Notes under the pieces: model-generated
What the model was told of the DNA's origin: nothing
Databases searched by the model: none
Seen by the model: only the letters and a program-made list of their open reading frames with translations
Shown: positions 36,445-60,776 of the stretch, piece by piece
Numbering within the stretch: position 1 is the stretch's first letter
Layout of the letters: every line of letters starts with the position of its first letter
Source of the DNA: Rhizobiaceae bacterium
Lineage (GTDB): Bacteria; Pseudomonadota; Alphaproteobacteria; Rhizobiales; Rhizobiaceae
Direction of reading: 5' to 3'
Length of the DNA: 64,000 bases
Assembly (NCBI GenBank): GCA_019635715.1
Contig: JAHBYY010000001.1
Span: 1 to 64,000 of the forward strand
Translations under genes and position numbers: made by a program

Positions 36445-36481
36445 GACCGCTCCTTCTCCATGCCTTGGGGATTGCGCCGGG

Positions 36482-38548
36482 TCAGCCCGGCCGGACGTCG
36501 ATGCGCAACCCGCCGCCCGGCGACAGCGATGCGACTGCGCCGGGGTCGATGACCACCGTCGTGAACGAGGACTCGACGATGGCCGGGCCGGCGACCTGCG
36601 CGGTCTCCGACATGGCCTCGAAGAGCACCACTTCCGCGTCGGTCCATCCCGTCGCCTCGAAATAGACCTGCCGCGTGCGGGTGTCCGCGCCGTCCTCGCG
36701 CGACAGCAGCCGCGATTGCGGCGGCCGGTGAAGGCGGCAGTTGATGCGCGCCCTCCAGGTGATGAACTCGATCGCCGAGTGGCTGTCCTCGATCTCGAAA
36801 ATGTCGCGATGCGTCGCGTGGAAGCGGTCGACCAGCCGCGCCAGACCGGCCGGGCCGACGATGTCGGCATCCGGCATCGCCACCTCGATCTCCCATATCT
36901 GATGCGCATAGCGCGCTTCCACGAAGAAGCTCGTCTCCGTCGACAGGGCACCCGCACCGGGACCTCGTGCGAAATCCCGGCAACGCCCGGCCAGTTCGGC
37001 AAGCACGTGCGACACGCCGGAATGATCGAACTCCGCGCTGGTCGTGTAGTGGATCCGGCTGTAGTCGGCCGACAGGTCCGACAGCAGCGCGCCGGCGGCG
37101 CTCAGGGCAGCGCCGACCTCGGGGATCAGCACCTGCGCGCAACCGAGTCTGCGGCCGACCGAAACGGCGTTCAAGCCGGCCGCGCCGCCGCCGCCGATCA
37201 GGATCGCCGAGGACGGGTCGAAGCCCTGGTTGACCGTGATCTCGTCGATGGCCCCGACCATCTTCTCGGTCGAGAGCGCGAGCACCGCCGCGGCAGCCTC
37301 CTCCGGCGTCAGGCCGAGAGGGTCCGCGACCTCCCGGCGCAGCGCCTCCAGTGCGAGGTCGCGATGCAGCGCCATGGCGCCGCCCAGAAAGAACTCCGGA
37401 TCGATATAGCCGAGGATGATGCAGCAGTCGGTGACGGTCGGCCTCATCCCGCCCTGCCCATAGGCGGCCGGCCCGGGCGTCGAGCCGGCGCTCATCGGTC
37501 CGACATGCAGCAGGCCGCCCTCGTCGACCCAGGCGATCGACCCGCCGCCGGCGCCGATGCTGCGCACGTCGACGGCCGGGAAGCCGGTCATGTGGCCGCG
37601 CATGCGCTGGCCGATCCAGGCCTCGCGCGTCCAGGGTATCCGGTTGTCCCTGACCAAGGTGACGTCGAAGGTCGTGCCGCCGGTGTCCGCGACGATGGCA
37701 GGGGCGCCGGCATGGTCGCGCGCGCTGTAGTGCCGCCCGGCCACCGGAGCCATGGCCGGGCCCGAATTGATCGAATGAATGGGCGCACGGGCCACGTCGC
37801 GCGCGTCCATGATGCCGCCCCCGGATGTCGCCATCAGCGTGCGCCCGGCAAAGCCGGCCTCCTGGAGACGGCGCTGGAGATTGTCCAGATAGGCGAACAT
37901 CAGCGGCTTGAGGGAGGCGTCGATGACCGCGGCGGATGCCCGCCGGTACTCCCGCAGCGACGGATTGAGCTGGTGCGACAGGGTGTAGGGAACGCCGGGC
38001 AGGTGCTGCTCCAGCAATTCGCCGACCCGTCTTTCATGCGCGCCGTTGACGATCGACCACAGGAGACAGACGCCGACGGCCTCGATCCCCGATGCCTTCA
38101 TCTGCGCGGCGATGTCGATGACGCCCTGCTCGTCGAGCGGCGCGCGCTCGGTGCCCGAAGCGTCGATGCGGCCGCCGACCTCGAAGGTCAGCCGGCGCGG
38201 TACGTAGGGCTCGGGATGGCCGACGGTGAAATTGAAAGGCTCGATGCGGCCGCCCTCACGGATCACCAGCACATCGGGATGGCCGGCCGACGTGAGGAAC
38301 GCCGTCCGCGCGGTCTGGCCGGTCAGAATGGCGTTGATCGCCCGCGTCGTGCCGTGCACGAACATCTCGGCGCGGGCGAGAAAGGCGGCAAGGTCCTGGC
38401 GATAATGCGCCGCCGCGAGCGCCAGGGCGTTGAGTACCCCCTGCACCGGATCGCTCGGGACCGTCGACGACTTGAAGAGAAGGATGTCAGCGCCATCCTC
38501 GACCACGAGGTCCGTGAAGGTGCCGCCCGTATCGCATGCCAGTCGCAT
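36482..38548 (-). CDS. hyuA: hydantoinase A/oxoprolinase family subunit (first copy)
   Basis: A 688-residue HyuA-type ATPase subunit of the acetate/sugar-kinase-like superfamily. The N-terminal phosphate-binding loop is RLACDTGGTFTDLVVEDG, MFVHGTTRAINAILTGQTAR lies near 88, and IVADTGGTTFDVTLVRDN near 285 is the second nucleotide loop. A further Gly-rich loop is SIGAGGGSIAWVDEGGLL near 338 and another ILIGGGGAAGLNAVSVGRRL near 455. The family includes 5-oxoprolinase, N-methylhydantoinase, caprolactamase and acetone/acetophenone carboxylases; the substrate is unknown. AAGGAGAACC before the ATG supports the start. Confidence 0.93.
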   Translation of the reverse strand: MRLACDTGGTFTDLVVEDGADILLFKSSTVPSDPVQGVLNALALAAAHYRQDLAAFLARAEMFVHGTTRAINAILTGQTARTAFLTSAGHPDVLVIREGGRIEPFNFTVGHPEPYVPRRLTFEVGGRIDASGTERAPLDEQGVIDIAAQMKASGIEAVGVCLLWSIVNGAHERRVGELLEQHLPGVPYTLSHQLNPSLREYRRASAAVIDASLKPLMFAYLDNLQRRLQEAGFAGRTLMATSGGGIMDARDVARAPIHSINSGPAMAPVAGRHYSARDHAGAPAIVADTGGTTFDVTLVRDNRIPWTREAWIGQRMRGHMTGFPAVDVRSIGAGGGSIAWVDEGGLLHVGPMSAGSTPGPAAYGQGGMRPTVTDCCIILGYIDPEFFLGGAMALHRDLALEALRREVADPLGLTPEEAAAAVLALSTEKMVGAIDEITVNQGFDPSSAILIGGGGAAGLNAVSVGRRLGCAQVLIPEVGAALSAAGALLSDLSADYSRIHYTTSAEFDHSGVSHVLAELAGRCRDFARGPGAGALSTETSFFVEARYAHQIWEIEVAMPDADIVGPAGLARLVDRFHATHRDIFEIEDSHSAIEFITWRARINCRLHRPPQSRLLSREDGADTRTRQVYFEATGWTDAEVVLFEAMSETAQVAGPAIVESSFTTVVIDPGAVASLSPGGGLRIDVRPG

Positions 38549-38622
38549 CGGTTCTCCTTGAGTCACCGCGTTTGTTCAGCCGAGGTCACACCATCCCGCA
38601 CTCGCCGCCGCGCCGTGCCGGC

Positions 38623-39957
38623 TCAGCCGAGCTCGCGCAGCGTCTCTTCGAGACGGCTCAGGAATTCGTCGGCGTTGGCGCGGCTGAACGGAAGCGGCGG
38701 GCGGATCTTGAGGACATTGCCGCTGACCCCTGAGGCGCTGATGAGCACCTGCTTCTCGCGCAGCCGGTTGACCACGTCGATGGCGTAGGCTCCGTCGGGC
38801 TCCTTGGTCCGGCGATCCTTGACGAAGTCCATGCCGAGGAAGAGGCCGGCGCTGCGGACCTCGCCGACACGCGGATTGTCCGCCGCCAGCCTGTCGAGGC
38901 CGGCACGCATATAGGCACCGACATTCGCGCAATTGCCCAGCAGTTGCTCGTCACGGATGACGTCGAGCACGGTCTGCGCCGCAGCGATGCAGACGGTGTT
39001 GGCGCCGAAGGTGTTGAAGTAGCGGATCTTCGTTCCGAACTCCGCGATGAGGTCGGGCCGCATCACCACGCCGGCGATCGGCATGCCGTTGCCCATCGGC
39101 TTGCCCATCACCACCAGATCCGGCGCGATGCCATGCCTCTGGAACCCCCACATGCTGTCGCCGGTGCGCGCGAAGCCGGGCTGCACCTCGTCGGCGATGA
39201 ACAGACCGCCCGCCGCCTGCACCGCCTTGACGGCCGCCGCGAACATGCCCTTCGGCTCGGTCAGGATGCCGTCGGACGAGAGCACCATGTCGGCGATCAT
39301 GCCGGCCAGCTTGATGCCCTTGCGCTGCATGGCGTCGATCGCGGCCTGAACGTCCGCCGCGAAACGCGCCGACACGTCCTCGCCGGGCGCGGTGCGGTAC
39401 CGGTCGGGCGCCGGAACGGTGTAGACGCTCTGGCCGAGGGGAACGTTCTTCCCCATGGACGGGGAGAGTTCGGAGACGGCCGTGGTCAGCCCGTGATAGG
39501 CGTTCTCGGTGACGATGAACCCCTGCCCGCCGGTGAAATAGCGCGAGATGCGCAGTGCGAGGTCGACGGCCTCGCTGCCGGTGCAGGTGTACATGACGTT
39601 GCCGAGATGCGACGGGAACGTCGACAGCAGATCCTTCGAGTAGCGGATGATGCTCTCGTCGAGATAGCGCGTATGGGTGTTCAGGATGGCGCTCTGCCTG
39701 GAGATCGCCTCGACGACGCGCGGGTGGCAGTGTCCGACGCACGGCACATTGTTGTAGACGTCCAGATAGGCATTTCCGGCGGCGTCGTACATCCAAACGC
39801 CCTCGGCGCGGACGAAATGCGCCGGATGCCGATAAAAGAGCTTGTAGGAGGGGCCGAGAACCTCGCTCCGCTCCGAGATCAGGCGCAGCTCATCGGCGGA
39901 CAGTCCCGCCGTCTGCCCCGGATCGAAGCCGTTGATCATGTATGCGGTTGCCGACAT
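38623..39957 (-). CDS. class III PLP enzyme of the phospho-lyase (AGXT2L/ETNPPL) type
   Basis: A 444-residue fold-type I PLP enzyme. The PLP-binding segment reads FIADEVQPGFARTGDSMWGF near 232, followed by DLVVMGKPMGNGMPIAGV near 260, whose Lys binds PLP. The phrase GKPMGNG with a preceding EVQPGFARTG is that of the AGXT2-like phospho-lyases (ethanolamine-phosphate and phosphohydroxylysine lyases), rather than ordinary omega-transaminases. Those enzymes eliminate phosphate and ammonia to leave a carbonyl. A hydroxylysine-kinase-like gene just upstream (66 bases away) fits this: kinase then phospho-lyase. A plain aminotransferase is the alternative. AGGAG precedes the ATG. Confidence 0.85.
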   Translation of the reverse strand: MSATAYMINGFDPGQTAGLSADELRLISERSEVLGPSYKLFYRHPAHFVRAEGVWMYDAAGNAYLDVYNNVPCVGHCHPRVVEAISRQSAILNTHTRYLDESIIRYSKDLLSTFPSHLGNVMYTCTGSEAVDLALRISRYFTGGQGFIVTENAYHGLTTAVSELSPSMGKNVPLGQSVYTVPAPDRYRTAPGEDVSARFAADVQAAIDAMQRKGIKLAGMIADMVLSSDGILTEPKGMFAAAVKAVQAAGGLFIADEVQPGFARTGDSMWGFQRHGIAPDLVVMGKPMGNGMPIAGVVMRPDLIAEFGTKIRYFNTFGANTVCIAAAQTVLDVIRDEQLLGNCANVGAYMRAGLDRLAADNPRVGEVRSAGLFLGMDFVKDRRTKEPDGAYAIDVVNRLREKQVLISASGVSGNVLKIRPPLPFSRANADEFLSRLEETLRELG

Positions 39958-40023: not shown

Positions 40024-41145
40024 TCAGGCGCCGCCGCGCCATGCGCTCATCACCCTCAGACGCCCTTCCTCGGGCGAAATCCGCATCACCTCGTCGATCA
40101 TCGTCCAGGCCGCCTCGCTGTTCCTGAGAATGTAGTCGCGATTCTGCGGAAACATCGACGACCTCCACAGATAGATCAGCACCCGCGCCACCAGCCGGGC
40201 GACGACGGCATGGTAGAGTTGCCGCACCTCGACCTCCTGGAGAGGAATGACCTCCTCGTAACCCACCATCAGATCGGCGATCACCTCGAACAGGTCGTCC
40301 TCGGGCTTGGCGGCATATCCGGCGGCGACGCCGATCTCGTTGATCAGCGGCGCGTAGACCATGTCGCCGAAGTCGATGACGCCGCTGACCCTGTCCTTGG
40401 TGTCCTCGGCGACCAGAATGTTGCTGGTGTTGATGTCGTTGTGGATGATCTGGCACCGGCAGGCGTAGAGTTCCGGGACCGCGACGCCGACGAACGAAGC
40501 GATGAACTCCTCCATCCAGCGGCGGCGGCGCACATCGTCGACCATCTGCACCATTGGCTGGAGCGAGGCCAACTGCATGATGTCCCACAGCAACTCGCGG
40601 CGCGCCGCGGCATGGTGGAAACTCGACAGCGCCTTGTCGAGCGTCGCACAGGAACGCCCGATATCCTGTCGCAAGGCTCGGCTGCTCGGCACCAGATTCT
40701 GCGAAACGCCGCGCATGAACGATATCAAGGTGCCGTGATGCTCCTGCCCACCGGCGACGAAATGGAACTCCGCGGCGCCGTCGAGGGTGGGCATCAGCCT
40801 CGGTACGAAGCCGCCTCCCCCATGTCGATGCACGTGCAGCAGCGCACGCTGCTGGAAGTCCCGCGTATCGGCGTCATCCATCTGATTGTAGACCTTGAGG
40901 ACGCAGCGCGGCTCGCCAGCCTCGGTGATGAGGAAATTGCGATCCCGCTCGCCCGCCAGGATGGTCGCCTCTACGTCCAGACCGTACACGTCGCGCGCAA
41001 TTCCGCACGCCGTCGCGATGTCTATATCTGGCTGATCAACTGACAAGAGCCTCTCGCCGCCGCCTGTTCTCTTCTGGGTGATGGGAATTGTCTTCAAGTC
41101 AGACTCTGTCTTCACTTGCCTGCGAGCCGACACGACACGCCGCAA
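40024..41145 (-). CDS. APH-fold kinase of the hydroxylysine-kinase (HYKK/AGPHD1) type
   Basis: An aminoglycoside-phosphotransferase-fold kinase. Visible motifs are the ATP-lobe Lys in PRCVLKVYNQ, the catalytic loop CQIIHNDINTSNILVAED and the metal-binding GVIDFGDMVYAPLINEIGVA. The DFGDM phrase and downstream Ala/Gly helix match hydroxylysine-kinase-like proteins and the kinase part of bacterial kinase-aminotransferase fusions. It would phosphorylate a hydroxyl of a hydroxylated amine or amino acid. The exact start is uncertain: the first 16-34 residues look unconserved and TTG or GTG starts further in are possible. It is the first gene of operon A, divergent from operon B. Confidence 0.85.
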   Translation of the reverse strand: MRRVVSARRQVKTESDLKTIPITQKRTGGGERLLSVDQPDIDIATACGIARDVYGLDVEATILAGERDRNFLITEAGEPRCVLKVYNQMDDADTRDFQQRALLHVHRHGGGGFVPRLMPTLDGAAEFHFVAGGQEHHGTLISFMRGVSQNLVPSSRALRQDIGRSCATLDKALSSFHHAAARRELLWDIMQLASLQPMVQMVDDVRRRRWMEEFIASFVGVAVPELYACRCQIIHNDINTSNILVAEDTKDRVSGVIDFGDMVYAPLINEIGVAAGYAAKPEDDLFEVIADLMVGYEEVIPLQEVEVRQLYHAVVARLVARVLIYLWRSSMFPQNRDYILRNSEAAWTMIDEVMRISPEEGRLRVMSAWRGGA

Positions 41146-41684: not shown

Positions 41685-43733
41685 ATGAGCCTTCTTGTCG
41701 GGATCGATGTCGGTGGAACGTTCACGGATTTCGTTGCCTATGACCATGACAGCGGCAGGATGGAGGCCTGGAAGGTGCTCTCCGTCCCGACCGACCCGGT
41801 GGTCGGCATACTGAACGGGCTGAACGCGCATCCCGCCGGCAAGACGGCGATCGAGCACATCCGCCTGGGCACGACGGTCGCCACCAATGCGATCCTTGAA
41901 CGCAAGGGGGCAACCGTCGCCTACGTCACGACGAAGGGCTTCAAGGACGTCATCTTCGTGCAGCGCGGCAACCGGCGCTTCCACTACGACATGAGCTGGG
42001 TCAAGCCCAAGCCGCTCGCCAAACGGCGGCACTGCTTCGAGCTCGACGAACGCATCGACGCCCACGGCGCGGTGCTCAAGGATCTCGACGAAGCTGAGGT
42101 CGCCCGCCTGGCCGAGGCGATCGCCGCCGATCCGTCGATCGAGGCCGTCGCGATCTGCCTGCTGTTCTCCTACATCAACCCGGACCACGAAATCCGGGTC
42201 AAGCAACTGCTGGGCGAGAAGCTCCCCGGCATGCCGATCTCGATCTCCTATGAGGTGCTTCCGAAGTGGAAGGAGTATGAGCGCGCCTCGACGACCCTCG
42301 CCGACGCCTATCTCAAGCCTGTCGTCAGCCGCCAGATGCGGGCGATGCGGGCCCGCTTGAACGAGGACGGCGTCAAGGCACCCACCGTGGTGATCAAGTC
42401 CAATGGCGGCCAGATGACCCTCGACGGCGCCGCCGACTCGCCGGTGCACCTCGTCGTTTCCGGTCCCACCGGAGGTGTCCTGGCGAGCTGCCAGGTCGCC
42501 AAGGCGACGGGCATCGACCACATGGTGACGATCGACATCGGCGGCACGTCCACCGACGTCTCGACCATCATCGACGGCAGCGAGCGCCTGACCACCGGCT
42601 TCGAGATCGAGTGGGGCGTGCCCGTCCAGATCCCGATCATCGACATCCGCACGATCGGCGCCGGCGGCGGCTCGATCGCATGGATCGACAAGGGCGGCAT
42701 GCTGCGCGTCGGCCCGCAGAGCGCCGGCGCCAATCCCGGCCCTGCGTCCTACGGCAGGGGCGAGCTGCCCACCGTCACCGACGCCAACCTGATGCTGGGC
42801 AGGATCGATCCCAACAATTTCCTAGGCGGCAAGATGACGCTCGACCGGGCTCGCGCCGAGCGCGCCATCGCCTCGGTCGCCGAGCCTCTGGGATATACGG
42901 TGATGGAGTGCGCGCTGTCGATCGTGCGCATCGCCAACAGCAACATGGTCGCCGCGCTGCGTTCCGTGCTCATCGAGGCCGGTCTCGATCCGCGCGACTT
43001 CACCCTGTCCGCCTTCGGCGGCGCCGGTCCAGTGCATGTCGGCGAGCTGATGATCGAAATGGGCATTCCGCGCGGCATCGTGCCCAACAATCCGGGCCAG
43101 TTCTCGGCCTCGGGTTTCATCATGTCGCAAGCCCGGGTCGACCGCCAGCGCACCACCCAGCTCACCAGTTATCGCTTCGACCGCGACAAGGCCGCGGACG
43201 TGCTGCGGTCGCTCGTCGACGAGGCGATCCAGCAATTGCGCGACCAGGGATTCGACGACGACGTCAAGCTCACCAAGCAGCTCGAGATGCGCTATCTCGG
43301 GCAGAACTACGAGCTCGAGCTTCAGGTCTCCGACGAGATGTTCGAGAGATCCGAGCATGAGGACGCGCTCTGGGCCGCCTTCCACGACGCCCACAAGTCG
43401 CGCTTCGGCTTCTCGACGCCGGGCGAGATCATCGAGATCGTCAATTTCAAGGTGACCGCCATCGCCGACAGCCCGATTCCGGAGCTGCCGCGCATCGAGA
43501 AGGCGAGCGCGCCGCCGCAGGCGCGGCGCCATCGCCTGGTGACTTTCACCGAGGGCGAGATCGACGTCCCGGTTTACGACCGCGACGACCTTCGCGCCGG
43601 CCACGCCGTGAAGGGACCGCTGCTGGTCGAGGAATCGGCTTCCGTAACTGTCATCTGCCCCGGCCAGAACCTCTCCGTCGACGACTACGGCCACCTTCTC
43701 ATCGAGAACGCCGCTCAGCAGGAAAACAACTGA
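41685..43733 (+). CDS. hyuA: hydantoinase A/oxoprolinase family subunit (second copy)
   Basis: A 682-residue HyuA-type ATPase subunit and first gene of operon B. Nucleotide-binding loops are VGIDVGGTFTDFVAYDHDSG at residues 5-24 and MVTIDIGGTSTDVSTIIDG near 280, with IGAGGGSIAWIDKGGMLRVG near 325 and FGGAGPVHVGELMIEMGIPR near 445. LGTTVATNAILERKGATVAY near 65 is the usual conserved Thr/Asn segment. It belongs with 5-oxoprolinase and acetone-carboxylase-type beta subunits and is a paralogue of the HyuA at 36482, though clearly different in sequence. Its stop overlaps the HyuB start (TGATG). Confidence 0.93.
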   Translation: MSLLVGIDVGGTFTDFVAYDHDSGRMEAWKVLSVPTDPVVGILNGLNAHPAGKTAIEHIRLGTTVATNAILERKGATVAYVTTKGFKDVIFVQRGNRRFHYDMSWVKPKPLAKRRHCFELDERIDAHGAVLKDLDEAEVARLAEAIAADPSIEAVAICLLFSYINPDHEIRVKQLLGEKLPGMPISISYEVLPKWKEYERASTTLADAYLKPVVSRQMRAMRARLNEDGVKAPTVVIKSNGGQMTLDGAADSPVHLVVSGPTGGVLASCQVAKATGIDHMVTIDIGGTSTDVSTIIDGSERLTTGFEIEWGVPVQIPIIDIRTIGAGGGSIAWIDKGGMLRVGPQSAGANPGPASYGRGELPTVTDANLMLGRIDPNNFLGGKMTLDRARAERAIASVAEPLGYTVMECALSIVRIANSNMVAALRSVLIEAGLDPRDFTLSAFGGAGPVHVGELMIEMGIPRGIVPNNPGQFSASGFIMSQARVDRQRTTQLTSYRFDRDKAADVLRSLVDEAIQQLRDQGFDDDVKLTKQLEMRYLGQNYELELQVSDEMFERSEHEDALWAAFHDAHKSRFGFSTPGEIIEIVNFKVTAIADSPIPELPRIEKASAPPQARRHRLVTFTEGEIDVPVYDRDDLRAGHAVKGPLLVEESASVTVICPGQNLSVDDYGHLLIENAAQQENN

Positions 43734-45667
43734 TGCGCCTGTCAGCCAACGGTTTCTACGTCGAGCAGTACCGCAAGTGCTGCAACTGCGGCATCCTCGT
43801 CTATGGCGAGGGCGTCCGTAACCCGGAACACCCCAAGAAGCTCTACTGCTCCGACTGGTGCGTCGAGTGGCGCACGAGCAAGGATCGCGGCGTCGCCGAT
43901 CCGGTGCTGCCGATCAAGCAGCCCAAGCTGCCGTTCGAGGCCGCCTACCCCGCCAAGGGCGAACGCATCGCGCCCTACGACCTGGTGACGATGAACATCC
44001 TCGACTCGACCATGGTGTCGGTCTGTCGCGAGATGGGCATTCTTCTGATGAAGACGTCCTACTCCACCATCTTCAACGAGGGCCTCGACTTCACCTGTGC
44101 GCTGGCCGACGCGAAGGGCGACATGATCGCCTGCGCCGAGTTCTGCCCCACCATGATCGGCGGCATGCCGCTTCTCATCAAGACCTGCGCCCAGGAGATC
44201 GATTTCAAGAGCCTCGAGGAGGGTGACATCATCCTCCACAACGATCCCTACCGCGGCGGTCTCCACTGCCCCGAGCACACCTTCTTCCGGCCGTTCTTCG
44301 TCGACGGCGAGCTTCTCGGCTTCGCCGTCTGCATCGGCCATATCGCCGAGATCGGCGGCATGGTGCCCGGCGCCTTCTGCGGCGAGGCGACCGAGATCTT
44401 CCACGAGGGGCTGCGCGTGCCGCCGGTGAAGATCATGAAGGCCGGCAAGGACGTCGAGGAGGTGTGGAAGCTGCTGCTGGCCAACACCCGCACGCCGCGC
44501 CAGAACTACGGCGACCTGAGGGCGATGATCGCCTCGGTCGAGCTCGGCTGCGAGCGCATCGCCGCCACCGTCCGCAAATACGGGAAAGCCGTCTTCAAGC
44601 AGACCTGCGAAGATCTCATGGACTATGCCGAGCGGCGCATGCGCGCCGAGATCGCCGAGTTCGCGGACGGCCTCTATTCGTTCGGCGACACCGTCGAGAA
44701 CGACGGCATCGTCAACAAGCCGTACCGGATCGAGGTCGATCTCCACATCCACGGCGACGAGGTGGTGGCCGACTTCTCGCGCAGCTCCGACCAGGCCAAG
44801 GGACCGATCAGCGCGACGCTCGGCGTGACCACCGGCGCGGTCTACAACGGCATGTTCCATGTGACGGACGCCTCGATCCCGAAGAACTCGGGCTGCTTCC
44901 GGCCGCTGCGGGTGGTGGCAAGACCCGGAAGCATGGCGAATGTCGACTATCCGGGGCCGCTCGTCGCGGGCAACACCGAACTGCATCCGCGCCTCGCCAA
45001 CATCGTCATCGGCGCCATGTCGAAATGCGTGCCGGAGCGGTCGATGGCGTCCGAGGCCTGCACGTCGATGAACTTCGTCTTCGGCGGCAACCATCCCGAA
45101 TATGACGAGTATTTCGCCTGCTACGATCTGATGGCCGGCGGATGGGGCGGCCGGCTCGGACACGACGGCAATGACTGCGTCATCGCCATCAACGGCAATT
45201 GCCGCTTCAATCCAACGGAGGTTTTCGAGACCCGCTTCCCGCTGATGGTGGAGAACTGCGAACTGGTCACCGATTCCGGCGGGCCGGGCGAATTCCGCGG
45301 CGGCCTCGGCTACAGCCGGACCCTGCTGGTGCGGGAAGTGCCGATCACCGGCAGCCAGTGCACCGATCGCCACGAGATCAAGCCCTACGCGCTGTTCGAC
45401 GGACTGCCCGGCGGCAATGGCTCGACGCTCGTCAAGACGGCCAACAGCAGCGACTGGAAGACCGTCTCGGAGGTCTACGGCAAGGTTTCGACGAGCAAAT
45501 ACGCCAATGTGGTGTTCGAGCCCGGCGATCGCATCAAGTTGACCACGCCTGGCGGCGGCGGATACGGCGACCCGAAGAAGCGGGCGCGCGAAAGCGTCCT
45601 GGAGGACGTGCGCGAAGCCTATGTATCCAGCCAGTCGGCCGAAACCGACTACGGGCTCAAGGGGTGA
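43733..45667 (+). CDS. hyuB: hydantoinase B/oxoprolinase family subunit with N-terminal zinc-finger-like segment (second copy)
   Basis: A 644-residue HyuB-type subunit. Residues 1-70 form an extra segment with KCCNCGILVYGEG (Cys16, 17, 19) and LYCSDWCVEW (Cys39, Cys43), spaced like a treble-clef zinc finger and absent from the HyuB at 34624. The family domain begins about residue 80 (IAPYDLVTMNILDSTMVSVC) and includes IILHNDPYRGGLHCPEHTFF near 165, LHPRLANIVIGAMSKCVPER near 422, DSGGPGEFRGGLGYSRTLL near 515, and TPGGGGYGDPKKR near 605. The start overlaps the HyuA stop by one base (TGATG), so the two subunits are likely made in equal amounts. Chemistry could be ring opening or carboxylation. 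Confidence 0.92.
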   Translation: MRLSANGFYVEQYRKCCNCGILVYGEGVRNPEHPKKLYCSDWCVEWRTSKDRGVADPVLPIKQPKLPFEAAYPAKGERIAPYDLVTMNILDSTMVSVCREMGILLMKTSYSTIFNEGLDFTCALADAKGDMIACAEFCPTMIGGMPLLIKTCAQEIDFKSLEEGDIILHNDPYRGGLHCPEHTFFRPFFVDGELLGFAVCIGHIAEIGGMVPGAFCGEATEIFHEGLRVPPVKIMKAGKDVEEVWKLLLANTRTPRQNYGDLRAMIASVELGCERIAATVRKYGKAVFKQTCEDLMDYAERRMRAEIAEFADGLYSFGDTVENDGIVNKPYRIEVDLHIHGDEVVADFSRSSDQAKGPISATLGVTTGAVYNGMFHVTDASIPKNSGCFRPLRVVARPGSMANVDYPGPLVAGNTELHPRLANIVIGAMSKCVPERSMASEACTSMNFVFGGNHPEYDEYFACYDLMAGGWGGRLGHDGNDCVIAINGNCRFNPTEVFETRFPLMVENCELVTDSGGPGEFRGGLGYSRTLLVREVPITGSQCTDRHEIKPYALFDGLPGGNGSTLVKTANSSDWKTVSEVYGKVSTSKYANVVFEPGDRIKLTTPGGGGYGDPKKRARESVLEDVREAYVSSQSAETDYGLKG

Positions 45668-45771: not shown

Positions 45772-47367
45772 ATGGGCGCACCGTCCGGAAGGTCGTCCTT
45801 CGATCGCCTGCGGCGCGTCTATCCGGTCGAGTCGATGCAGCCGGGAATCGATGTCGCCTGCAGGCTCATTGCCTCCGTCATCGGTCCCTGCGGCCGGGCC
45901 GTGCTGGTCGGCAGGGGGCCGTCCTTTCCGCTGCGCAGCCGCTCCGGCTATGCCGTCCTGCAGCAGGTCGAACTCGCGCACAAGCCGCAGAACGCCGGTC
46001 TTTCCTTCATGCGCGAACTGGCCTGGTCGATGCAGCAGGATTTTCGGGACGGCAGCAGCGCGGTGGTGCTGATCGCCGCCGAACTGCTGCGTGGCGCCGG
46101 CGCGGCGGTGGCGGCGGGCATCCCGGCCATCGAGCTTGCCGAGGCGCTGCAGGCGCATGGCGAACTGATCGTGCGCCAGCTTCGCGCCGAGGGCCGGGCG
46201 GCGGATATCGGCGCCCTGACGGCCGTCGCCGAGCAGGCGGCCGGCGATGATGCGCAAACAGCCCGTCGCCTGGCCGAGGCCGCGGCGAAGCTGGGTCCGG
46301 ATGCCTTCATCGAGATCGAGACGGCTGAATCACGCCAGGACAGTCTTGTCGTCGAAACAGGATATCGCATCGAGGGTGGGCTTGCATCGAGCCGTCTGGC
46401 GGCAGGGTTCGCGGGCGCCGCGCGCCTGGACGATCCGCTGATCGTCGTCCATCCCGCTCCTATCGAGAGCTTTAACGCGGTCGAGCCGGTGATGCGCATG
46501 GCTGCGGCTGCGGGACGCAGCCTGCTTTTCCTGACGGAGGGCATCTCCGGGGAGGCACTGGCGACGCTCGTGATCAACCGCCAGGCCAACCGGCTCGCGG
46601 CGGTCGCGGCCAGGCTGACGGCCGCCGGCGAGACGCGCCGCGCCCTGCTGGACGACATCGCGGCGGTCACCGGAGCGACGATCATCGGCGACGCCAGCGG
46701 CACCCGGCTGGCGGAACTGCGGCCAGCCATGGTCGGACGGGCCGGCCATGTCATGGTCACCGCGCAATCTGCCCTCGTGGTCGGCGGCCAGGGCGCTCCG
46801 GAGACCGTGGCCGCGCGGGTCGCAGCGGCGCGTCTGGACCTGCAGCGGCCGGGCACGCTCGACCTCGACCGCGAGCGCGCCTCGCGCAGGCTGGCCTATC
46901 TCACCTCCGGCGTGGTGCGGGCGCAGCTCGGCGCGGCATCGCGTCTCGAAGCGGCAGCCCGGCTCGAACAGGCCCGGTCCGTGGCGGCGGCCCTGTCGGC
47001 GGCGCGTCGAGGCGGCGTGGTCGCCGGCGGCGCCAGCGCATGGGTCGCAGCGGAAGCGCGCGCCCGCGCCAGCCTGGCGCCCGGAACGGTCGGTGCGGCG
47101 GTCGGCCAGGTCTTCGCCAGAGCACTGTCGGCACCCTTGCGTTGCATCGCGGCGTCCTCGGGCGACGACGCCGACTGGGTCACGGAGCGCGTGCGCCAGT
47201 CGGCAGCCGGCGAGAGTGTCTGCTTCGACGCGGCCAAGCGAACGTTCCGCGAGAGCCGCGCCCTTGGCGACCCGCTCGACGTGATGACGGCCGCGGTGTC
47301 GCGCGCCGTGTCGGCGACGGCGACCCTGCTGACGGCCAACAGGCTGATTGTGAGGGTCGCGACATGA
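45772..47367 (+). CDS. highly divergent GroEL/HSP60-like chaperonin in the hydantoinase operon
   Basis: A 531-residue protein that aligns by eye with GroEL over most of its length. Matches include IGPCGRAVLV near 37 (GroEL LGPKGRNVVL), DGSSA at 93-97 (DGTTT), AGIPAIELAEAL near 115, SGEALATLVINRQANRLAAV at 259-278 (EGEALATLVVNTM), and GGVVAGGAS at 414-422 (EGVVAGGGV). In ungapped local alignments the ATPase residues Asp52 and Asp398 of E. coli GroEL fall on Ser58 and Ser403, while Asp87 is kept as Asp93. The Gly-Met tail is missing. It lies between HyuB and the ABC transporter genes, so it probably helps fold or assemble the HyuAB enzyme rather than acting as a general chaperone. No groES-like gene is nearby. 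Confidence 0.8.
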   Translation: MGAPSGRSSFDRLRRVYPVESMQPGIDVACRLIASVIGPCGRAVLVGRGPSFPLRSRSGYAVLQQVELAHKPQNAGLSFMRELAWSMQQDFRDGSSAVVLIAAELLRGAGAAVAAGIPAIELAEALQAHGELIVRQLRAEGRAADIGALTAVAEQAAGDDAQTARRLAEAAAKLGPDAFIEIETAESRQDSLVVETGYRIEGGLASSRLAAGFAGAARLDDPLIVVHPAPIESFNAVEPVMRMAAAAGRSLLFLTEGISGEALATLVINRQANRLAAVAARLTAAGETRRALLDDIAAVTGATIIGDASGTRLAELRPAMVGRAGHVMVTAQSALVVGGQGAPETVAARVAAARLDLQRPGTLDLDRERASRRLAYLTSGVVRAQLGAASRLEAAARLEQARSVAAALSAARRGGVVAGGASAWVAAEARARASLAPGTVGAAVGQVFARALSAPLRCIAASSGDDADWVTERVRQSAAGESVCFDAAKRTFRESRALGDPLDVMTAAVSRAVSATATLLTANRLIVRVAT

Positions 47368-47434: not shown

Positions 47435-48526
47435 ATGAACAAATCCTCGCAAGACGGCCTGATGCTGGAGATCAGCCACGCGGTCCACCGCTACGGCACC
47501 TTCACCGCGCTGAACGACGTCTCGCTGGTCGCGCGAGCCGGCGAGTTCCTCACCATCCTCGGCGAGAGCGGTTCCGGCAAGACGACGCTGTTGCGGCTGA
47601 TCTCCGGCCTCGAGCATCCCTACGCCGTGGAAGCGCTCAAGCTGGACGGCGTCGACGTGACCAGGACGCCGGCGCATCAACGCAACTGCACCACTGTCTT
47701 CCAGCACTATGCGCTGTTTCCCCACATGTCGGTGGTGGAAAATGTCGAATACGGCCTCAAGGTGCGCGGCGTGGCCCCGGCCGAGCGTCGTTCGCGGGCC
47801 TTGAGCGCGCTCGAGATCGTGCGCCTCGCCAACAAGCATGACCGCCGGATTCATCAGCTAAGCGGCGGCGAGCGGCAGCGTGTCGCGCTCGCGCGGGCCT
47901 TCGTGCCCCAGCCGGCGATCCTCCTGCTGGACGAGCCACTTGGCGCCCTGGACGAAAAGCTGCGCATCGAGATGCAGATCGAACTGATGGAAATCCACCG
48001 TCAGCTCGGCATGACCTTCGTCTACATCACCCACAGCCAGGAAGAGGCGCTCACCATGAGCGATCGCGTCATCCTGATGACGAAAGGCCGCATCGCCCAG
48101 GTCGGCGCGCCCGCCGATCTCTTCGACCGGCCGGAAAGCCGCTTCGTGGCGGACTTCATGGGCATGGAGAACCTGCTCGAAGGGAGGCTCGTCGAGCATG
48201 GCGGCGAGCATGTGACGGTTGCGCTCGACGACACCACGGTGCGCGGCAGGCTTTCCCGGCAGGGTTCCGCGGCGGTCGGCTCCAAGGTCATCGTCGGCAT
48301 GCGCGCCGAGCGCATCTCGATGGGCGCCGAACCGCCGCCCGACGCGACCCTGAACTCCGTCCGCGGCACGCTCAGGAGCAGCATCTACAGGGGCAAATAT
48401 CTCGACCGCGAGATCGAGACGACGGCCGGCGTGCTCAAGGCGCGCATCTGGAGCTCGTCATCCGAGTTCGAGGGATCTGGCTATGCATGGTGGCGTCCGG
48501 AGGACTGTGTCGTCATGCCGGCTTGA
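47435..48526 (+). CDS. ABC transporter ATP-binding protein (PotA-like)
   Basis: A 363-residue ATPase of the spermidine/putrescine-type importer family. Walker A is ILGESGSGKTTLLRLISGLE near 36, the Q-loop is in TTVFQHYALFPHMSVVENVE near 86, the signature LSGGERQRVALARAF near 142, Walker B AILLLDEPLGALDEKLRIEM near 163, and the switch His is in VYITHSQEEAL near 195. A C-terminal TOBE-type domain (about 280-355) may regulate the transporter. It couples with the solute-binding protein and two permeases that follow, and follows the chaperonin-like gene by 67 bases. Confidence 0.93.
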   Translation: MNKSSQDGLMLEISHAVHRYGTFTALNDVSLVARAGEFLTILGESGSGKTTLLRLISGLEHPYAVEALKLDGVDVTRTPAHQRNCTTVFQHYALFPHMSVVENVEYGLKVRGVAPAERRSRALSALEIVRLANKHDRRIHQLSGGERQRVALARAFVPQPAILLLDEPLGALDEKLRIEMQIELMEIHRQLGMTFVYITHSQEEALTMSDRVILMTKGRIAQVGAPADLFDRPESRFVADFMGMENLLEGRLVEHGGEHVTVALDDTTVRGRLSRQGSAAVGSKVIVGMRAERISMGAEPPPDATLNSVRGTLRSSIYRGKYLDREIETTAGVLKARIWSSSSEFEGSGYAWWRPEDCVVMPA

Positions 48527-48598
48527 AGACAATTCGCGGCGATGTCTCGTCGTTGGCGAATGACCGACAACGCGTCGGCAAAACAACAGGAGTGGAAC

Positions 48599-49804
48599 AT
48601 GGCAAAGCCGGAAAACATGGGAAATGGGATTGAAATCACACGCCGGACGGCGCTGGGCGGCATGCTCGGCGCGTCCGGAGCCGCGATGCTCGGAAGCCTG
48701 CCGTTCGGCACCTCGGCGGCGAGTGCGGCCGACAACCCGGTGGTGAAGGTCTACGGCATCACCTCGGCCCAGATGAACGACTGGGCGCACATCAAGGAAG
48801 CGATCGGCATCACCATCGAGTGGACGCCGACCAATGACGATACCGGCGTCTTCATCCGCGACGTGATTTCGAACAATGTCGGCGAAACGCACGACATCCT
48901 GATCTTCAACGGCGGCACCCAGACCGTGCTTGCCCCGCAGGGCCTGCTGGCGGAGATCGACACCGCCAACCCGAACCTCACCAAATGGGCCGACGCCTCC
49001 AAGGACTGGACGGAAAGCGCGCTCGTCATGGCCGACGGCAAGACCTTCGGCGTTCCGATCGACGGCAACGCCGACAGCTTCGGATACTTCCCGGAAGCGA
49101 TCGGCGTCGACCCGTCCGGCAGCGAGGAAGTTTCCTGGGGCGTGATGTTCGAGGATGAGAGGCTGCGCGGCCGCGTCGGCGTCGATCGCAACTGGTCTCA
49201 GTCGCTGTGCTGCGCCGCGCTGTTCCTGAACCACGCCGGCCGGCAGAACATCGCCGACGTGGCGAATCCGACCGGCGAGGAAGCCAAGGCCGTCGTCGAC
49301 TATCTGATCGAGCGCAAGAAAGCCGGCCAGTTCCGCACGATCTTCAGCTCCTTCGAGGAACAGATCCAGTTGCTCTCCAACAAGCAGGTCGACGCCCTGA
49401 ACTGCTGGGAACCGGCTGTACGCGAGTCGAACAAGGCGCTGAACGCCAACTCGGTGGTCTATGCCTACACGGTCGAAGGCTACTTCAAATGGGGCCACGC
49501 CGCCCATGTGCCCGCGCAGGCGGTGGACCGCGGCAACATCGAGAACATCTACAAGGTGCTGAACTACTTCATCGATGGCGAGTATCGCGCCTACCAGGCG
49601 ATCGACCGCGGCTATGCGGGTCCGAACATGGACCTCGGCGTCGAATACGCCAAGGCTAAGGGTTGGGAGGCCGACAAGGTGCAGTCGATCCAGAACACCG
49701 CCGACAAGGTGGCGCGCAAGTTCGCCAAGCCCTTCGTCAACCTGCCCGCGCCGCCGAACGCCGACGCGATCGAGGAGGAGTGGCAGCGTTTCCTGAACGC
49801 TTGA
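48599..49804 (+). CDS. periplasmic solute-binding protein with Tat-type signal (PotD-like)
   Basis: A 401-residue extracellular solute-binding protein. The N-terminus has a twin-arginine signal (ITRRTALGGMLGASG, then a hydrophobic stretch ending SAASAAD). The mature part (VVKVYGITSAQMNDWAHIKE onward) has the two-lobe layout of polyamine/iron-type binding proteins, with FGVPIDGNADSFGYFPEA near 150 and LSNKQVDALNCWEPAVRESN near 265. The ligand is probably the compound broken down by the operon; it cannot be read from sequence. The ATG at 48599 is used because AGGAG lies six bases upstream; a start at 48542 would spoil the signal. Confidence 0.88.
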   Translation: MAKPENMGNGIEITRRTALGGMLGASGAAMLGSLPFGTSAASAADNPVVKVYGITSAQMNDWAHIKEAIGITIEWTPTNDDTGVFIRDVISNNVGETHDILIFNGGTQTVLAPQGLLAEIDTANPNLTKWADASKDWTESALVMADGKTFGVPIDGNADSFGYFPEAIGVDPSGSEEVSWGVMFEDERLRGRVGVDRNWSQSLCCAALFLNHAGRQNIADVANPTGEEAKAVVDYLIERKKAGQFRTIFSSFEEQIQLLSNKQVDALNCWEPAVRESNKALNANSVVYAYTVEGYFKWGHAAHVPAQAVDRGNIENIYKVLNYFIDGEYRAYQAIDRGYAGPNMDLGVEYAKAKGWEADKVQSIQNTADKVARKFAKPFVNLPAPPNADAIEEEWQRFLNA

Positions 49805-49853: not shown

Positions 49854-50768
49854 ATGGGCACAGCGCAAGACGAGACAAGGCGGCCGGCATCGCGCCTTGC
49901 CGACTACTGGCCGTCCGGCCTTGCCGTGCCTGCCTTCATGATCTCCTGGTCGATCCTCGTCCTGCTGCCGATCGTCATCATCGTGGCGTTCAGCTTCCTG
50001 CAGATGAAGTCCTACCGCGTCGTCTACGAGCCGACGCTGGCGACATGGACCAACATCATCGTCTCGGAGCGGTGGTTCACCGTCGTGCGCACCTTGCGCA
50101 TCGCGCTGACTATCACGGCGATCGAGTTGCTGCTGGCCTTCCCGTTCGCCCTCTGGATGGCGAAGCGCTGCCGCTCCAAATCGCTGAAGGCGATGATCGT
50201 CACCCTGCTGACGATCCCCTTCTTCCTCGATATGTCGTCGCGCATCATCGTCTGGCGCTCGATCCTCGACGTCAACGGCGGCATCAACTCGCTGCTGCTC
50301 AACCTCGGCCTGATCGACGCGCCGATCCAGTGGCTTCTCTACTCCGAATTCGCGGTACACTTCGGCATGATCGGATCCTACTTTCCAGCCATGGTATTCC
50401 CGATCTTCACCTCCCTGGTGCTGATCGACGACGAATACATCCACGCCAGCGGCGATCTCGGCGGCAACCCGCTGCAGACCCTGCGCTACATCATCCTGCC
50501 GCTGGCTATGCCCGGCATCGTCGCCGGGATCATCTTCACCCTCGTTCCGCTGATGGCCGCGTTCGTCGAGCCGCGCATGCTGGGCGGAGGCTTCGTCAAC
50601 CTCTTGGGCGACTCGATCAATTCCGCGCTGCAGGAACTCAAATATCCCACGGCGGCGGCGCTTTCGACGATCGTGATCGTGGCGCTCGGCGTGCTCATGG
50701 TGGTGCTGGTGAAGCTGATCGGCCGTCGCGAAGGCAACACGTCCCTGTTCCAGGTGGTGCAGAGATGA
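49854..50768 (+). CDS. ABC transporter permease (PotB-like)
   Basis: A 304-residue inner-membrane permease with six expected membrane segments. The first is at about residues 28-52 (FMISWSILVLLPIVIIVAFS). The cytoplasmic EAA loop that contacts the ATPase reads SGDLGGNPLQTLRYIILPLA near 200. It overlaps the second permease gene by four bases (ATGA), as is usual for heterodimeric permease pairs of this importer type. Confidence 0.92.
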   Translation: MGTAQDETRRPASRLADYWPSGLAVPAFMISWSILVLLPIVIIVAFSFLQMKSYRVVYEPTLATWTNIIVSERWFTVVRTLRIALTITAIELLLAFPFALWMAKRCRSKSLKAMIVTLLTIPFFLDMSSRIIVWRSILDVNGGINSLLLNLGLIDAPIQWLLYSEFAVHFGMIGSYFPAMVFPIFTSLVLIDDEYIHASGDLGGNPLQTLRYIILPLAMPGIVAGIIFTLVPLMAAFVEPRMLGGGFVNLLGDSINSALQELKYPTAAALSTIVIVALGVLMVVLVKLIGRREGNTSLFQVVQR

Positions 50769-51622
50769 CCGCCGCAGCCATCGACACCGACAATCGAAAT
50801 GCCGACCCCGCGATGCGGCGCGTGCATGTGCGCGACCACCTCCGGACGGCGTCGCGCATCGCCGTCCTGCTCGGCGGCGGAGCGCTCGCACTGATCTACC
50901 TGCCGCTGCTTTGGCTGGCGGTCATGTCCTTTGCGCGCAACCCGCTCTCCGGCATACCGATGCCGCTGACGACGATGCACTACCAAGCGATCCTCAACGA
51001 TGTGCGCTGGGTGAAGCCGCTGCTCACCAGCATCGCCCTGAGCGCCATCGTCGCCCTCGTCTGCATGATCGCGGCGACGCTGGTGGCGCGGGCCGCCATC
51101 CGCATGCGCAAGCCGGGCGTCATGCTCCTCGTGTCGCTGGCGCCGCTGTTCATTCCCGGCCTGACGATGGGCGCGGCGCTGTTCATCAGCCTGCGCATGC
51201 TGATGAACCTGACGCTCGGCCTGTGGTCGATCTTCTTGGCGCAGTTCATCTGGGCCTTCCCCTTCGCCCTGCTGATGGTGCTGATCGTCGCCAGCCGCTT
51301 CGATACCCGCCTGCTGCACGCGGCGGAGGACCTCGGCGCCACCCCCTGGCAGCGGTTCTGGGACATCGAGGTGCCGCTGCTGCGGCCCGGCATCATCGGC
51401 GCCGGCATCTTCGCCTTCCTGCTCTCGTTCAACGAACTGCTGCGATCGCTGTTCGTGCGCGGCCAGGACACGACCATGCCGATCTACAATTGGATCATGG
51501 CGGCCTCGCAGCAGTCGCAGGTGCCGATCATCTTCGCGCTGACGACGCTCGTGCTGTTCGTCACGCTGCCGATCACCGCCGCCAGCTTCTGGTACGTCTT
51601 CGTCAAGCTCGACAAGTCATGA
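50765..51622 (+). CDS. ABC transporter permease (PotC-like)
   Basis: A 285-residue permease with membrane segments beginning near residue 33 (IAVLLGGGALALIYLPLLWL). The EAA loop is AAEDLGATPWQRFWDIEVPL near 185, followed by a transmembrane segment and FLLSFNELLRSLFVRGQDTT. It partners the permease at 49854. The start ATGA overlaps the stop of that gene, and its own stop overlaps the ATG of the GntR gene. Confidence 0.92.
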   Translation: MTAAAIDTDNRNADPAMRRVHVRDHLRTASRIAVLLGGGALALIYLPLLWLAVMSFARNPLSGIPMPLTTMHYQAILNDVRWVKPLLTSIALSAIVALVCMIAATLVARAAIRMRKPGVMLLVSLAPLFIPGLTMGAALFISLRMLMNLTLGLWSIFLAQFIWAFPFALLMVLIVASRFDTRLLHAAEDLGATPWQRFWDIEVPLLRPGIIGAGIFAFLLSFNELLRSLFVRGQDTTMPIYNWIMAASQQSQVPIIFALTTLVLFVTLPITAASFWYVFVKLDKS

Positions 51623-52332
51623 GCGCGCGGCAGCATTCGGAGCGGGAGGCGTCCGGAGCCCTGCCCGACTCACGCCAGGACCGCGACGACGATGCGGCGC
51701 TCAACGTGCAGGCCTACAACGCCCTGCGCGAGCGATTGCTGACCGGCCTCTACAGGCCCGGTTCCCTGCTCAACACCCGTCCGCTCGCCGAGGAGTTCGG
51801 GACGAGCGTCATGCCGGTGCGGGAGGCGCTGGCGCGGCTGCGCTCCGACGGCGCGCTGGAAGCGCTTCCGAACCGCGCCTTCAGGGTTCCGGTCCTGCGC
51901 GAGGAGGTTTTCCGCGAGCTGGTCATCCTGCGCCTGCGTCTCGAGGCGGCGGCCTGCGAATGCGCCGCGGTGCGCGCCACGGCGCAGGACTGCCGAGAGG
52001 TCGCATCGATCTACCAGCGCATGCTCGCCTGCTACGACGACGATCTCGACGAATATCTCGGCGAGCACAGGAAGCTGCATTTCGCCATCTACGAGATCGC
52101 GGCGATGCCGCTGCTCAAGGGACTCATCGAACGCCTCTGGCTGCGCATGGGTCCCCTGTTGCGGGCAAGCAGCGAGGGTCGCATTCTGTTCGACAACACC
52201 CATCACGGTGCCATGGTCAGGGCGCTCTCCGCGAGCGACCCGGTCGCCCTGGTGTCGGCGCTCCGGGACGATCTCGTCGACAGCATCGAGCCGATCTGCC
52301 TCTATCTGCGCCGACTCGGCTCCGAAAGCTGA
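51619..52332 (+). CDS. GntR-family (FCD) transcriptional regulator 1
   Basis: A 237-residue regulator at the end of operon B. A winged-helix domain (about 25-95: AYNALRERLLTGLYRPGSLL and SVMPVREALARLRSDGALEA) is followed by an all-helical FCD ligand-binding domain with the metal-binding residues around DEYLGEHRKLHFAIYEIA near 144. The start overlaps the upstream permease stop by four bases. It is a close paralogue of the regulator at 54104: long stretches such as LWLRMGPLLRASS are identical. It likely senses the imported compound and acts at the TGNGATCTCA sites. Its 3' end overlaps the convergent dehydratase gene by 31 bases. Confidence 0.9.
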   Translation: MSARQHSEREASGALPDSRQDRDDDAALNVQAYNALRERLLTGLYRPGSLLNTRPLAEEFGTSVMPVREALARLRSDGALEALPNRAFRVPVLREEVFRELVILRLRLEAAACECAAVRATAQDCREVASIYQRMLACYDDDLDEYLGEHRKLHFAIYEIAAMPLLKGLIERLWLRMGPLLRASSEGRILFDNTHHGAMVRALSASDPVALVSALRDDLVDSIEPICLYLRRLGSES

Positions 52333-54103: not shown

Positions 54104-54913
54104 CTAGCCGGAACCCCGCTCGTTGTGCTGCCGGATGTATTCCGAGATCGGCTCGAGGCCGTCGAGCAGGTCTTCGTTCAGCGCCGCGACGAGCCCGGTC
54201 GGATCGGACGCCGACAGCGCCTTGACCATCGCGCCGTGATGGGCGTGGTCGATGGCGCGGCGCGTCGCCTGGCTGCTGGCGCGCAGCAACGGCCCCATGC
54301 GCAGCCAAAGATCTTCGATGAAGGTCTTCAGCACCGGCATCTCGGCGATGTCGTAGATCGCGAAATGGAACCGGCGGTGCGACGCGAGATAGACCTCGAG
54401 CGAGGCCTTGCTGCATTCCAGCATGTCCTGATAGGCGGCTGCGACCGCCCGCGCCTGGTCGATCGAGCAGAGCACCGCCGCGCGTTCGCAGGCGCAGGCC
54501 TCCAGCCGAAGACGCAGCAGCAGGAGTTCGCGGAAGACGCTTTCCTCGATGACGGGCACACGGAAGGCGCGGTTGGCCAGCGCCTCGAGCGCGCCGTCCG
54601 ACCGCAGCCGCGACAGCGCCTCCCGTACCGGCATCGGGCTCATGCCGAGCTGCGCGGCAAGCGGCCTGATGTTCAGCATGGAGTCGGGCGGGAAGGCGCC
54701 GGACAGCAGCCCCTCCCGAAGCACCATGTAGGCCTTTACGTTCAGCGCGACGTCGCCGAATTCCTGCGACTGCAGATCAAGATCGAGGGGTGCCCGAACC
54801 CTGGTCCTGCGCCGCACCGGCGCTGCTGGCTTTGCATCGTCCAATCGGGCAACCGCGGGAAAGAGAGTTGGCGAGAGATCGGCCACACTCTCAAATTTGC
54901 CTGACCTCATCAA
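54104..54913 (-). CDS. GntR-family (FCD) transcriptional regulator 2
   Basis: A 269-residue regulator with a longer N-terminus (about 45 residues) than its paralogue at 51619. The winged helix (AYMVLREGLLSGAFPPDSML and SPMPVREALSRLRSDGALEA) and FCD domain (SLEVYLASHRRFHFAIYDIA, then LWLRMGPLLRASSQ) match gene 51619 closely. It is the third gene of operon C, so the operon may regulate itself through the TGNGATCTCA sites at 57659 and 57892. The two regulators may respond to different ligands or form mixed dimers. Confidence 0.9.
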   Translation of the reverse strand: MMRSGKFESVADLSPTLFPAVARLDDAKPAAPVRRRTRVRAPLDLDLQSQEFGDVALNVKAYMVLREGLLSGAFPPDSMLNIRPLAAQLGMSPMPVREALSRLRSDGALEALANRAFRVPVIEESVFRELLLLRLRLEACACERAAVLCSIDQARAVAAAYQDMLECSKASLEVYLASHRRFHFAIYDIAEMPVLKTFIEDLWLRMGPLLRASSQATRRAIDHAHHGAMVKALSASDPTGLVAALNEDLLDGLEPISEYIRQHNERGSG

Positions 54914-58382: not shown

Positions 58383-58457
<75 letters not shown>

Positions 58458-58710: not shown

Positions 58711-58853
58711 TTGCCGGGTTGCACGGCTCTACCGGCGCCTGGGCGATGGCCGGTCCAGCGGTTTCCTTGAACCGCGGGACGCGATGGTCTAGAGGGGCGT
58801 CTTCCTTGCATTCGGCGAATCTGTTTCGGTGATTCCCCGGGAAAGTGATATTC

Positions 58854-60143: not shown

Positions 60144-60319
60144 GGCGATGCGGGCCGCGGTGGTTGCACACCCGGCCCGGAGCGCCTAGTTAGGCCGACG
60201 GTCTCCGGATCTCGAAGCCGCTAGCACAGCGTTGCCCATGAGACCCCGGCCGGCCGGCGGGCGGCTCGATCTGCGCAGGGCAGGATGAGTCTTTTCCGCT
60301 GCATATCACGGCAGAAGGC

Positions 60320-60766: not shown

Positions 60767-60776
60767 GGACCGCATC

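Follow-up and report, generated by a model that had tools for sequence, protein, structure and literature searches.

A GroEL paralogue without the catalytic aspartate 398 is linked to a PotABCD-type importer operon in four bacterial lineages

A GroEL paralogue that has lost the residue equivalent to the catalytic Asp398 was found in four lineages, each time beside, or one gene away from, a four-gene importer of the PotABCD type. One member lies in the window analysed here (the whole stretch of 64,000 nucleotides from a Rhizobiaceae bacterium). Our favoured reading, held tentatively, is that of a group I chaperonin paralogue dedicated to the importer operon, with a slow ATPase and with a constant product of the operon, not the hydantoinase HyuAB as such, as its client. 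As far as the open-licence literature was searched, the D398-less group, its link to the importer and its persistence alongside differing hydrolases are new; no report of a chaperonin linked with hydantoinase/oxoprolinase or such importer operons was found there.

The chaperonin gene is a single open frame with an ATG start (Table 1), and its product shares about 27% identity with E. coli GroEL. Pfam Cpn60_TCP1 matches residues 32–527 (E 4e-25), solved GroEL chains align with residues 22–527 in phmmer (best E 3.5e-59), and an AlphaFold2 model (mean pLDDT 82.1) matches GroEL/Hsp60 chains over 506–537 columns among the 50 matches listed. With its full-length domain and fold, the protein is a member of the Cpn60 superfamily (group I chaperonins), as the initial annotation had proposed from the sequence; the structure prediction that it had called for points the same way. 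The NCBIfam GroEL models score the protein at 275 bits or less, under each curated cut-off listed (the GroEL3 model gives 107 bits, its cut-off being 600). The C-terminus reads RLIVRVAT, without a GGM tail. The AlphaFold2 model adopts a closed conformation, which was considered as a sign of a permanently closed ring and rejected, since a canonical GroEL from the same sequence set, modelled as a control, was also closed; the predicted conformation is therefore no evidence.

Three syntenic relatives were identified, in two draft genomes of the same order, here called G354 and G399, and in the complete sequence record of Shinella sp. PSBB067; the window genome (G000) is itself incomplete. The four proteins share 28–35% identity. 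With the window chaperonin as query (E <= 1e-66), 397 genomes of the order yielded one relative beyond the window, G354 (37% identity), and 385 genomes of the class and 398 of the phylum yielded none. These searches scored the best three candidates per genome and were blind to more distant members: G399 belongs to the sample of 397 genomes and was missed, and both the G399 and the Shinella members score below ordinary GroEL against the window chaperonin. Orthologue counts obtained with this query were therefore discarded as unreliable. With query P0002, all 10 genomes of G354's family matched at E <= 1e-66; among the 13 matches beyond P0002, 12 were ordinary GroELs (67–70% identical to E. coli) and one, L053, had 51% identity, and all of them keep D398.

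The binding protein of the importer was also used as a query. Shinella sp. PSBB067 ranked first among plasmid records (55% identity; the next had 34%, among the best 20 of 158), and its chaperonin, earlier a weak match (H8) among 1287 records, was recognised through this binding protein. In 259 genomes of the order, the query found the window genome, G354 and G399 at E <= 1e-80, and the G399 locus also holds a group chaperonin. Since G399 was found with the binding protein and not with the chaperonin, it provides an independent test of the linkage. Each of the four loci in which a close orthologue of the binding protein was found also has a group chaperonin. The same search gave G399 alone among 30 genomes of its family and, at E <= 1e-60, 2 of 61 relatives, namely the window and a weaker match of 35% identity in genome G167; a blastn search of plasmids gave no match. 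The sample covers a fraction of the known genomes, and four members of the group are known.

All four members fall under the TIGR02348 cut-off of 582.1 bits (window 250, G354 322, Shinella 133, G399 260), and the G354 protein narrowly misses that of the broader GroEL subfamily model PRK12849 (351.4 against 352). The two members submitted to PHROGs matched its general GroEL family alone, and PADLOC matched none of the four. In a tree of 35 rows the four lie on one side of a branch with support 100/98. Their end branches are very long (4.5–9.5) and their composition is odd, and the midpoint root of the drawn tree falls among them, so that the order of the members is unsure, a single origin is unproved and the grouping may be due to long-branch attraction. 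All four are full-length open frames, with GC by codon position typical of a coding frame in the window, G354 and Shinella and unclear in the lower-GC G399.

The substitutions at the ATPase site were examined in three alignments, which agree for the window protein: phmmer, a MAFFT alignment that includes E. coli GroEL and further rows, and an hhalign comparison of a profile of the four members with one of 20 ordinary GroEL-type proteins. The residues named in the initial annotation (Table 1) were reproduced in each, and none places an acidic residue of the window protein at position 52 or 398, so that the first refuting condition of that annotation failed. Across the group (order: window / G354 / Shinella / G399), position 398 reads S/R/R/R, position 87 D/D/D/D and position 52 S/G/T/D; in 107 other non-identical rows, Asp occupies these positions in 107, 107 and 106 cases, respectively. 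Loss of D52 is thus lineage-specific, and the lesion common to all four is that of D398. Further positions vary, with Q/Q/R/R at D83 and A/A/G/G at G416. In the AlphaFold2 model, Ser403 sits in a helix (391–414) at the place of GroEL helix M, and Ser58 directly follows a strand (54–56).

The 107 rows, of which 57 or 58 come from viral contigs and the others from genomes and one plasmid, were chosen with no filter for a motif, after omission of a partial match (L014), 22 identical rows and a 108th row, L056, which is a truncated copy of the window chaperonin; up to three of them (L151, L152, L153) are the same gene under another locus identifier. They served to recount D87, as a smaller set of 46 other rows (with L036 and L037 as duplicates of L002 and L011) had been picked by a motif containing D87 and its count was circular. 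In a smaller set picked by such a motif, 76 positions are invariant in the other rows; nine of these are changed in all four members, including D398 (one, G477, is counted via a gap in Shinella), whereas all four retain 23, among them G32, P33, D87, G88, G414 and G415. All four also carry an insertion of one Leu after E. coli residue 358, found in none of the 107 rows. The single row of the 107 without Asp at position 52 is a divergent GroEL on a plasmid of Cupriavidus sp. KK10 (NZ_CP073678.1, L038 11881–13593), which has Ser there and keeps Asp398; judged by eye, it adjoins genes resembling FtsH and erythromycin esterase.

Compared with GroEL/Hsp60 (PF00118, TIGR02348), the group shares the full-length fold and the GP loop, D87-G and GG loop that form the phosphate/Mg-binding core, but has lost D398 in all four members and D52 in three, and none of the four shows a GGM tail in the alignment. 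The groove that binds GroES and clients (L234/L237/V264) reads E/M/I in the window, S/L/K in G354, V/I/R in Shinella and V/L/V in G399, so that the all-hydrophobic character is lost in three of four. Inter-ring and groove residues appear to be partly altered. By analogy with GroEL mutants, the protein would bind ATP and hydrolyse it very slowly: the D52A/D398A double mutant of GroEL is nearly stalled. The D398A mutant is reported to retain about 2% of the ATPase of the wild type and to be slowed in its late apical movement (PMC3813556). A slow ATPase of this kind could turn the putative ring into a client-specific holding or assembly chamber that works without the general GroES-driven cycle. 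Loss of the tail and the changed groove in three of four members make such a general cycle unlikely, and the chaperonin is probably independent of GroES. G399 runs counter to this reading, since it keeps both D52 and a hydrophobic groove.

The gene stands third in a run of plus-strand genes (HyuA2, HyuB2, chaperonin, ATPase, binding protein, two permeases, GntR regulator) that ends at 52332. The gaps along the run are -1, 104, 67, 15, 49, -4 and 14 nt (two starts are estimated), fitting a single operon. None of eight terminator-like sites lies in the gaps of 104 and 67 nt that flank the chaperonin; 5.7 such sites are expected by chance, and their absence there is therefore weak evidence. Upstream on the minus strand, beyond HyuA1/HyuB1, follow a 3-hydroxyacyl-CoA/carnitine-dehydrogenase-like gene and an Asp/Glu/hydantoin racemase gene. 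The cluster probably imports ring-shaped amides and opens them; a lactam-like compound taken up by the importer would be ring-opened and then transaminated.

Table 1. Features of the chaperonin locus, with positions counted within the window
Feature	Position	Strand	Remarks	Basis
HyuB1, second hydantoinase B subunit	34624..36483	-		Locus comparison
HyuA1, second hydantoinase A subunit	36482..38566	-	70% identity in G354	
Class-III aminotransferase	38623..39957	-	56% identity to that of the Shinella locus	
APH-family kinase	40024..41145	-	Relative in the Shinella locus, 34% identity	
HyuA2, hydantoinase/oxoprolinase A subunit, caprolactamase-alpha-like	41685..43733	+	G354 orthologue, 64% identity	Pfam, NCBIfam
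HyuB2, hydantoinase B subunit	43733..45667	+	73% identity in G354	Pfam, NCBIfam
GroEL-like protein, 531 aa	45772..47367	+	Ser58 at Asp52, Ser403 at Asp398, Asp93 at Asp87, Gly-Met tail gone	Pfam, NCBIfam, alignments
Importer ATPase, PotA-like	47435..48526	+	58–59% identity in the three other loci	Pfam, NCBIfam
Binding protein, twin-arginine (Tat-like) N-terminus	48542..49804	+	50–52% identity in the three other loci	
Importer permease 1, PotB-like	49854..50768	+		Pfam, NCBIfam
Importer permease 2	50765..51622	+	Start estimated	
GntR/FCD regulator	51637..52332	+	Start estimated	

Some features of the surroundings deserve mention in their own right. The last regulator of the run and a second GntR/FCD regulator (54104–54913) are 64% identical and flank an IlvD/Edd-type dehydratase gene. 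Just outside the catabolic block lie a tRNA-Thr(GGT) gene (58383–58457, minus strand) and genes at 58845–62117 that by eye resemble murA and hisD; the block may have inserted close to the tRNA gene. The N-terminus of HyuB2 (about residues 1–60) contains a zinc-finger-like CxxC...CxxxC segment. In Sulfitobacter dubius and Shinella sumterensis (L064 13714–13908, L066 13720–13911), the equivalent of this segment (window 43733–43910) is a separate gene of 63–64 codons directly downstream of hyuB, annotated as hypothetical protein: a small HyuAB partner, either fused or split. In L064 and L066 (the latter from Shinella sumterensis CP132317.1), the HyuA2/HyuB2 relatives are accompanied by a 4-aminobutyrate or other aminotransferase and a succinate-semialdehyde dehydrogenase, hinting at a pathway of the 2-pyrrolidone-to-GABA type. 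G354 carries tandem HyuB1-like genes (L035 3427–6953; 69% and 68% identical to window HyuB1) behind a single HyuA1.

Comparison of the four loci revealed a constant set consisting of the chaperonin, the importer ATPase, the binding protein, two permeases (51–70% identical to those of the window), a GntR-type regulator (31–33%) and a class-III aminotransferase, the last in two types (window/Shinella, 56% identity; G354/G399, 47%). The ring-opening enzyme varies: it is HyuAB in the window and G354, and PxpABC in Shinella and G399, where the genes were assigned by 56–63% identity to those of Shinella. PxpABC consists of a LamB/YcsF protein and two carboxyltransferase-domain subunits, from Pfam families other than those of HyuAB. 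The immediate neighbour of the chaperonin differs as well. It is HyuB2 in the window, HyuA1 (divergent) in G354 and PxpA in Shinella, where the first chaperonin ATG (12290) lies 4 nt past the PxpA stop (12285); in G399 an aminotransferase stands between chaperonin and ATPase, and the hydrolase is not adjacent.

Nine hydantoinase loci served as controls, read over about 8–12 kb on each side (for L158, one side is limited to 1.8 kb by the end of its contig). An HMM built from the four members, which found only those four among 15 sequences scanned, had no match at the eight loci with HyuA2/HyuB2 relatives (L063–L066, L156–L159) or at L155, where a HyuA1/HyuB1 relative lies beside a related importer and a LacI-like regulator takes the place equivalent to that of the chaperonin. 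Since two of the four loci have PxpABC in place of HyuAB, and no chaperonin lies in the stretches read at nine HyuAB loci, HyuAB is unlikely to be the defining client. The initial annotation had proposed a dedicated, slow chaperonin for HyuAB or its transporter, linked with hydantoinase genes. Dedication, a probably crippled ATPase and a conserved linkage are supported; HyuAB as client is not supported, and the hydantoinase link is limited to the window and G354. The transporter fits better, as it lies beside or one gene from the chaperonin in every case.

The genes that are constant across the loci are candidates for the client; the importer, and its binding protein in particular, or else the aminotransferase would be likeliest. 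In the window, the binding protein matches no Pfam, NCBIfam or PDB entry at E 0.001, and a twin-arginine motif is present on all four, which suggests a pre-export role of the chaperonin. A one-client chaperonin is imaginable whose hydrolysis-free ring forms a cytoplasmic holding chamber that keeps the Tat-exported binding protein export-competent until it is folded or loaded; we consider this improbable. The relative in G167, which has no chaperonin, shares the twin-arginine motif, so the Tat signal was set aside as an explanation and the holding chamber is retained as a possible reading only. Together with the importer locus L155, the G167 protein indicates that a chaperonin is not generally required.

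Separate canonical groEL genes with an adjoining groES exist in G354 and G399; no groES was noticed beside the group chaperonins. The window genome (4.57 Mb, 151 contigs, 85% complete) holds one other GroEL-like gene, and no housekeeping groEL and no groES were found in this assembly; given its completeness, the housekeeping groESL probably lies in the missing part. The other gene (contig C108, 16451–17962; L002 and L036) encodes a protein that keeps D52, D87 and D398 and has D/R/G in the groove. By eye, it adjoins a sigma-54-type regulator and an apparent propane-monooxygenase cluster. From the neighbours, we take this protein and L011 of a congener to be MimG-type. These MimG/MmoG-type proteins are likewise GroEL paralogues inside catabolic clusters, and the groove is also changed in L011 (D/R/G at 234/237/264), but both retain all three aspartates, unlike our group. 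They fall across the branch from the four members in the tree, and the window protein was accordingly rejected as a MimG orthologue.

That GroEL-like proteins assist propane monooxygenases, a precedent invoked in the initial annotation, agrees with published statements: functional expression of the enzyme is reported to depend on such a protein (PMC6849523), a list of maturation proteins assigns MimG to MimAC (PMC7176365), and mmoG is mentioned as a neighbour of methane monooxygenase genes (PMC6778391). Divergent paralogues are also represented by chlamydial GroEL2 and GroEL3, for which differences at ATP- and GroES-binding sites are reported, with no mention of catabolic-operon linkage in the excerpt available (PMC1892554). 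GroEL paralogues without a Gly-Met tail are reported to occur and to be often dispensable (PMC11978752). The CapAB/Opl and PxpABC operons encode the same kinds of ring-opening enzymes as the four loci. The caprolactamase CapAB (PMC8453981) and the Opl enzymes (PMC11033972) are described as produced in E. coli, in the former case a host with its own GroEL; the main texts of both papers contain the word GroEL nowhere and 'chaperon' once, for Hsp70.

These precedents bear on the possibility that the chaperonin assembles the ATP-dependent lactam-opening enzyme, HyuAB or PxpABC, much as MimG serves propane monooxygenase. It adjoins a subunit of such an enzyme in three loci, and OplA and OplB are reported as poorly soluble when expressed singly, but according to the same source co-expression of OplA raised soluble OplB (PMC11033972). 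A single client surface on enzymes of different families seems unlikely, the nine chaperonin-free HyuAB loci speak against it, and in G399 the neighbour is an aminotransferase, not a hydrolase. The version restricted to HyuAB is weakened by these loci and by PxpABC, and we regard enzyme assembly in general as unlikely, if worth keeping in mind. It is also conceivable, though rather doubtful, that the protein, though derived from GroEL, is no longer a chaperone and serves as a scaffold, sensor or regulator, with a metabolite or a product of the operon bound by its apical domain. Alteration of both groove and ATP site and the very fast divergence would suit such a role, but D87, the GP and GG loops and the overall fold are kept, suggesting that nucleotide binding may be retained.

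The canonical groESL kept separately in G354 and G399 would allow a slow subunit to co-assemble with housekeeping GroEL and retune some of the rings. We think this very unlikely, as mixed rings are doubtful when contact sites are altered and identity to the canonical subunits compared is about 26–33%. Least credible of all is a GroEL copy in decay that has been kept by chance. Lost catalytic residues and very long branches are what decay would leave, but the frames are open and full-length in four lineages, codon-position GC is that of coding sequence in three of them, and the indel, D87 and the place in the operon are conserved. A slow chaperonin dedicated to the importer operon stays our tentative preference.

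Dedicated GroEL-like proteins were known before for propane and methane monooxygenases, and the two MimG-type proteins checked here keep their ATPase residues. A group that lacks D398 and keeps D87 in four lineages, each time beside one importer, is nature's equivalent of the D398A mutant. With it one can examine whether useful work by a chaperonin is possible when hydrolysis is slight or absent, and how a folding machine of general use becomes restricted to a single client.
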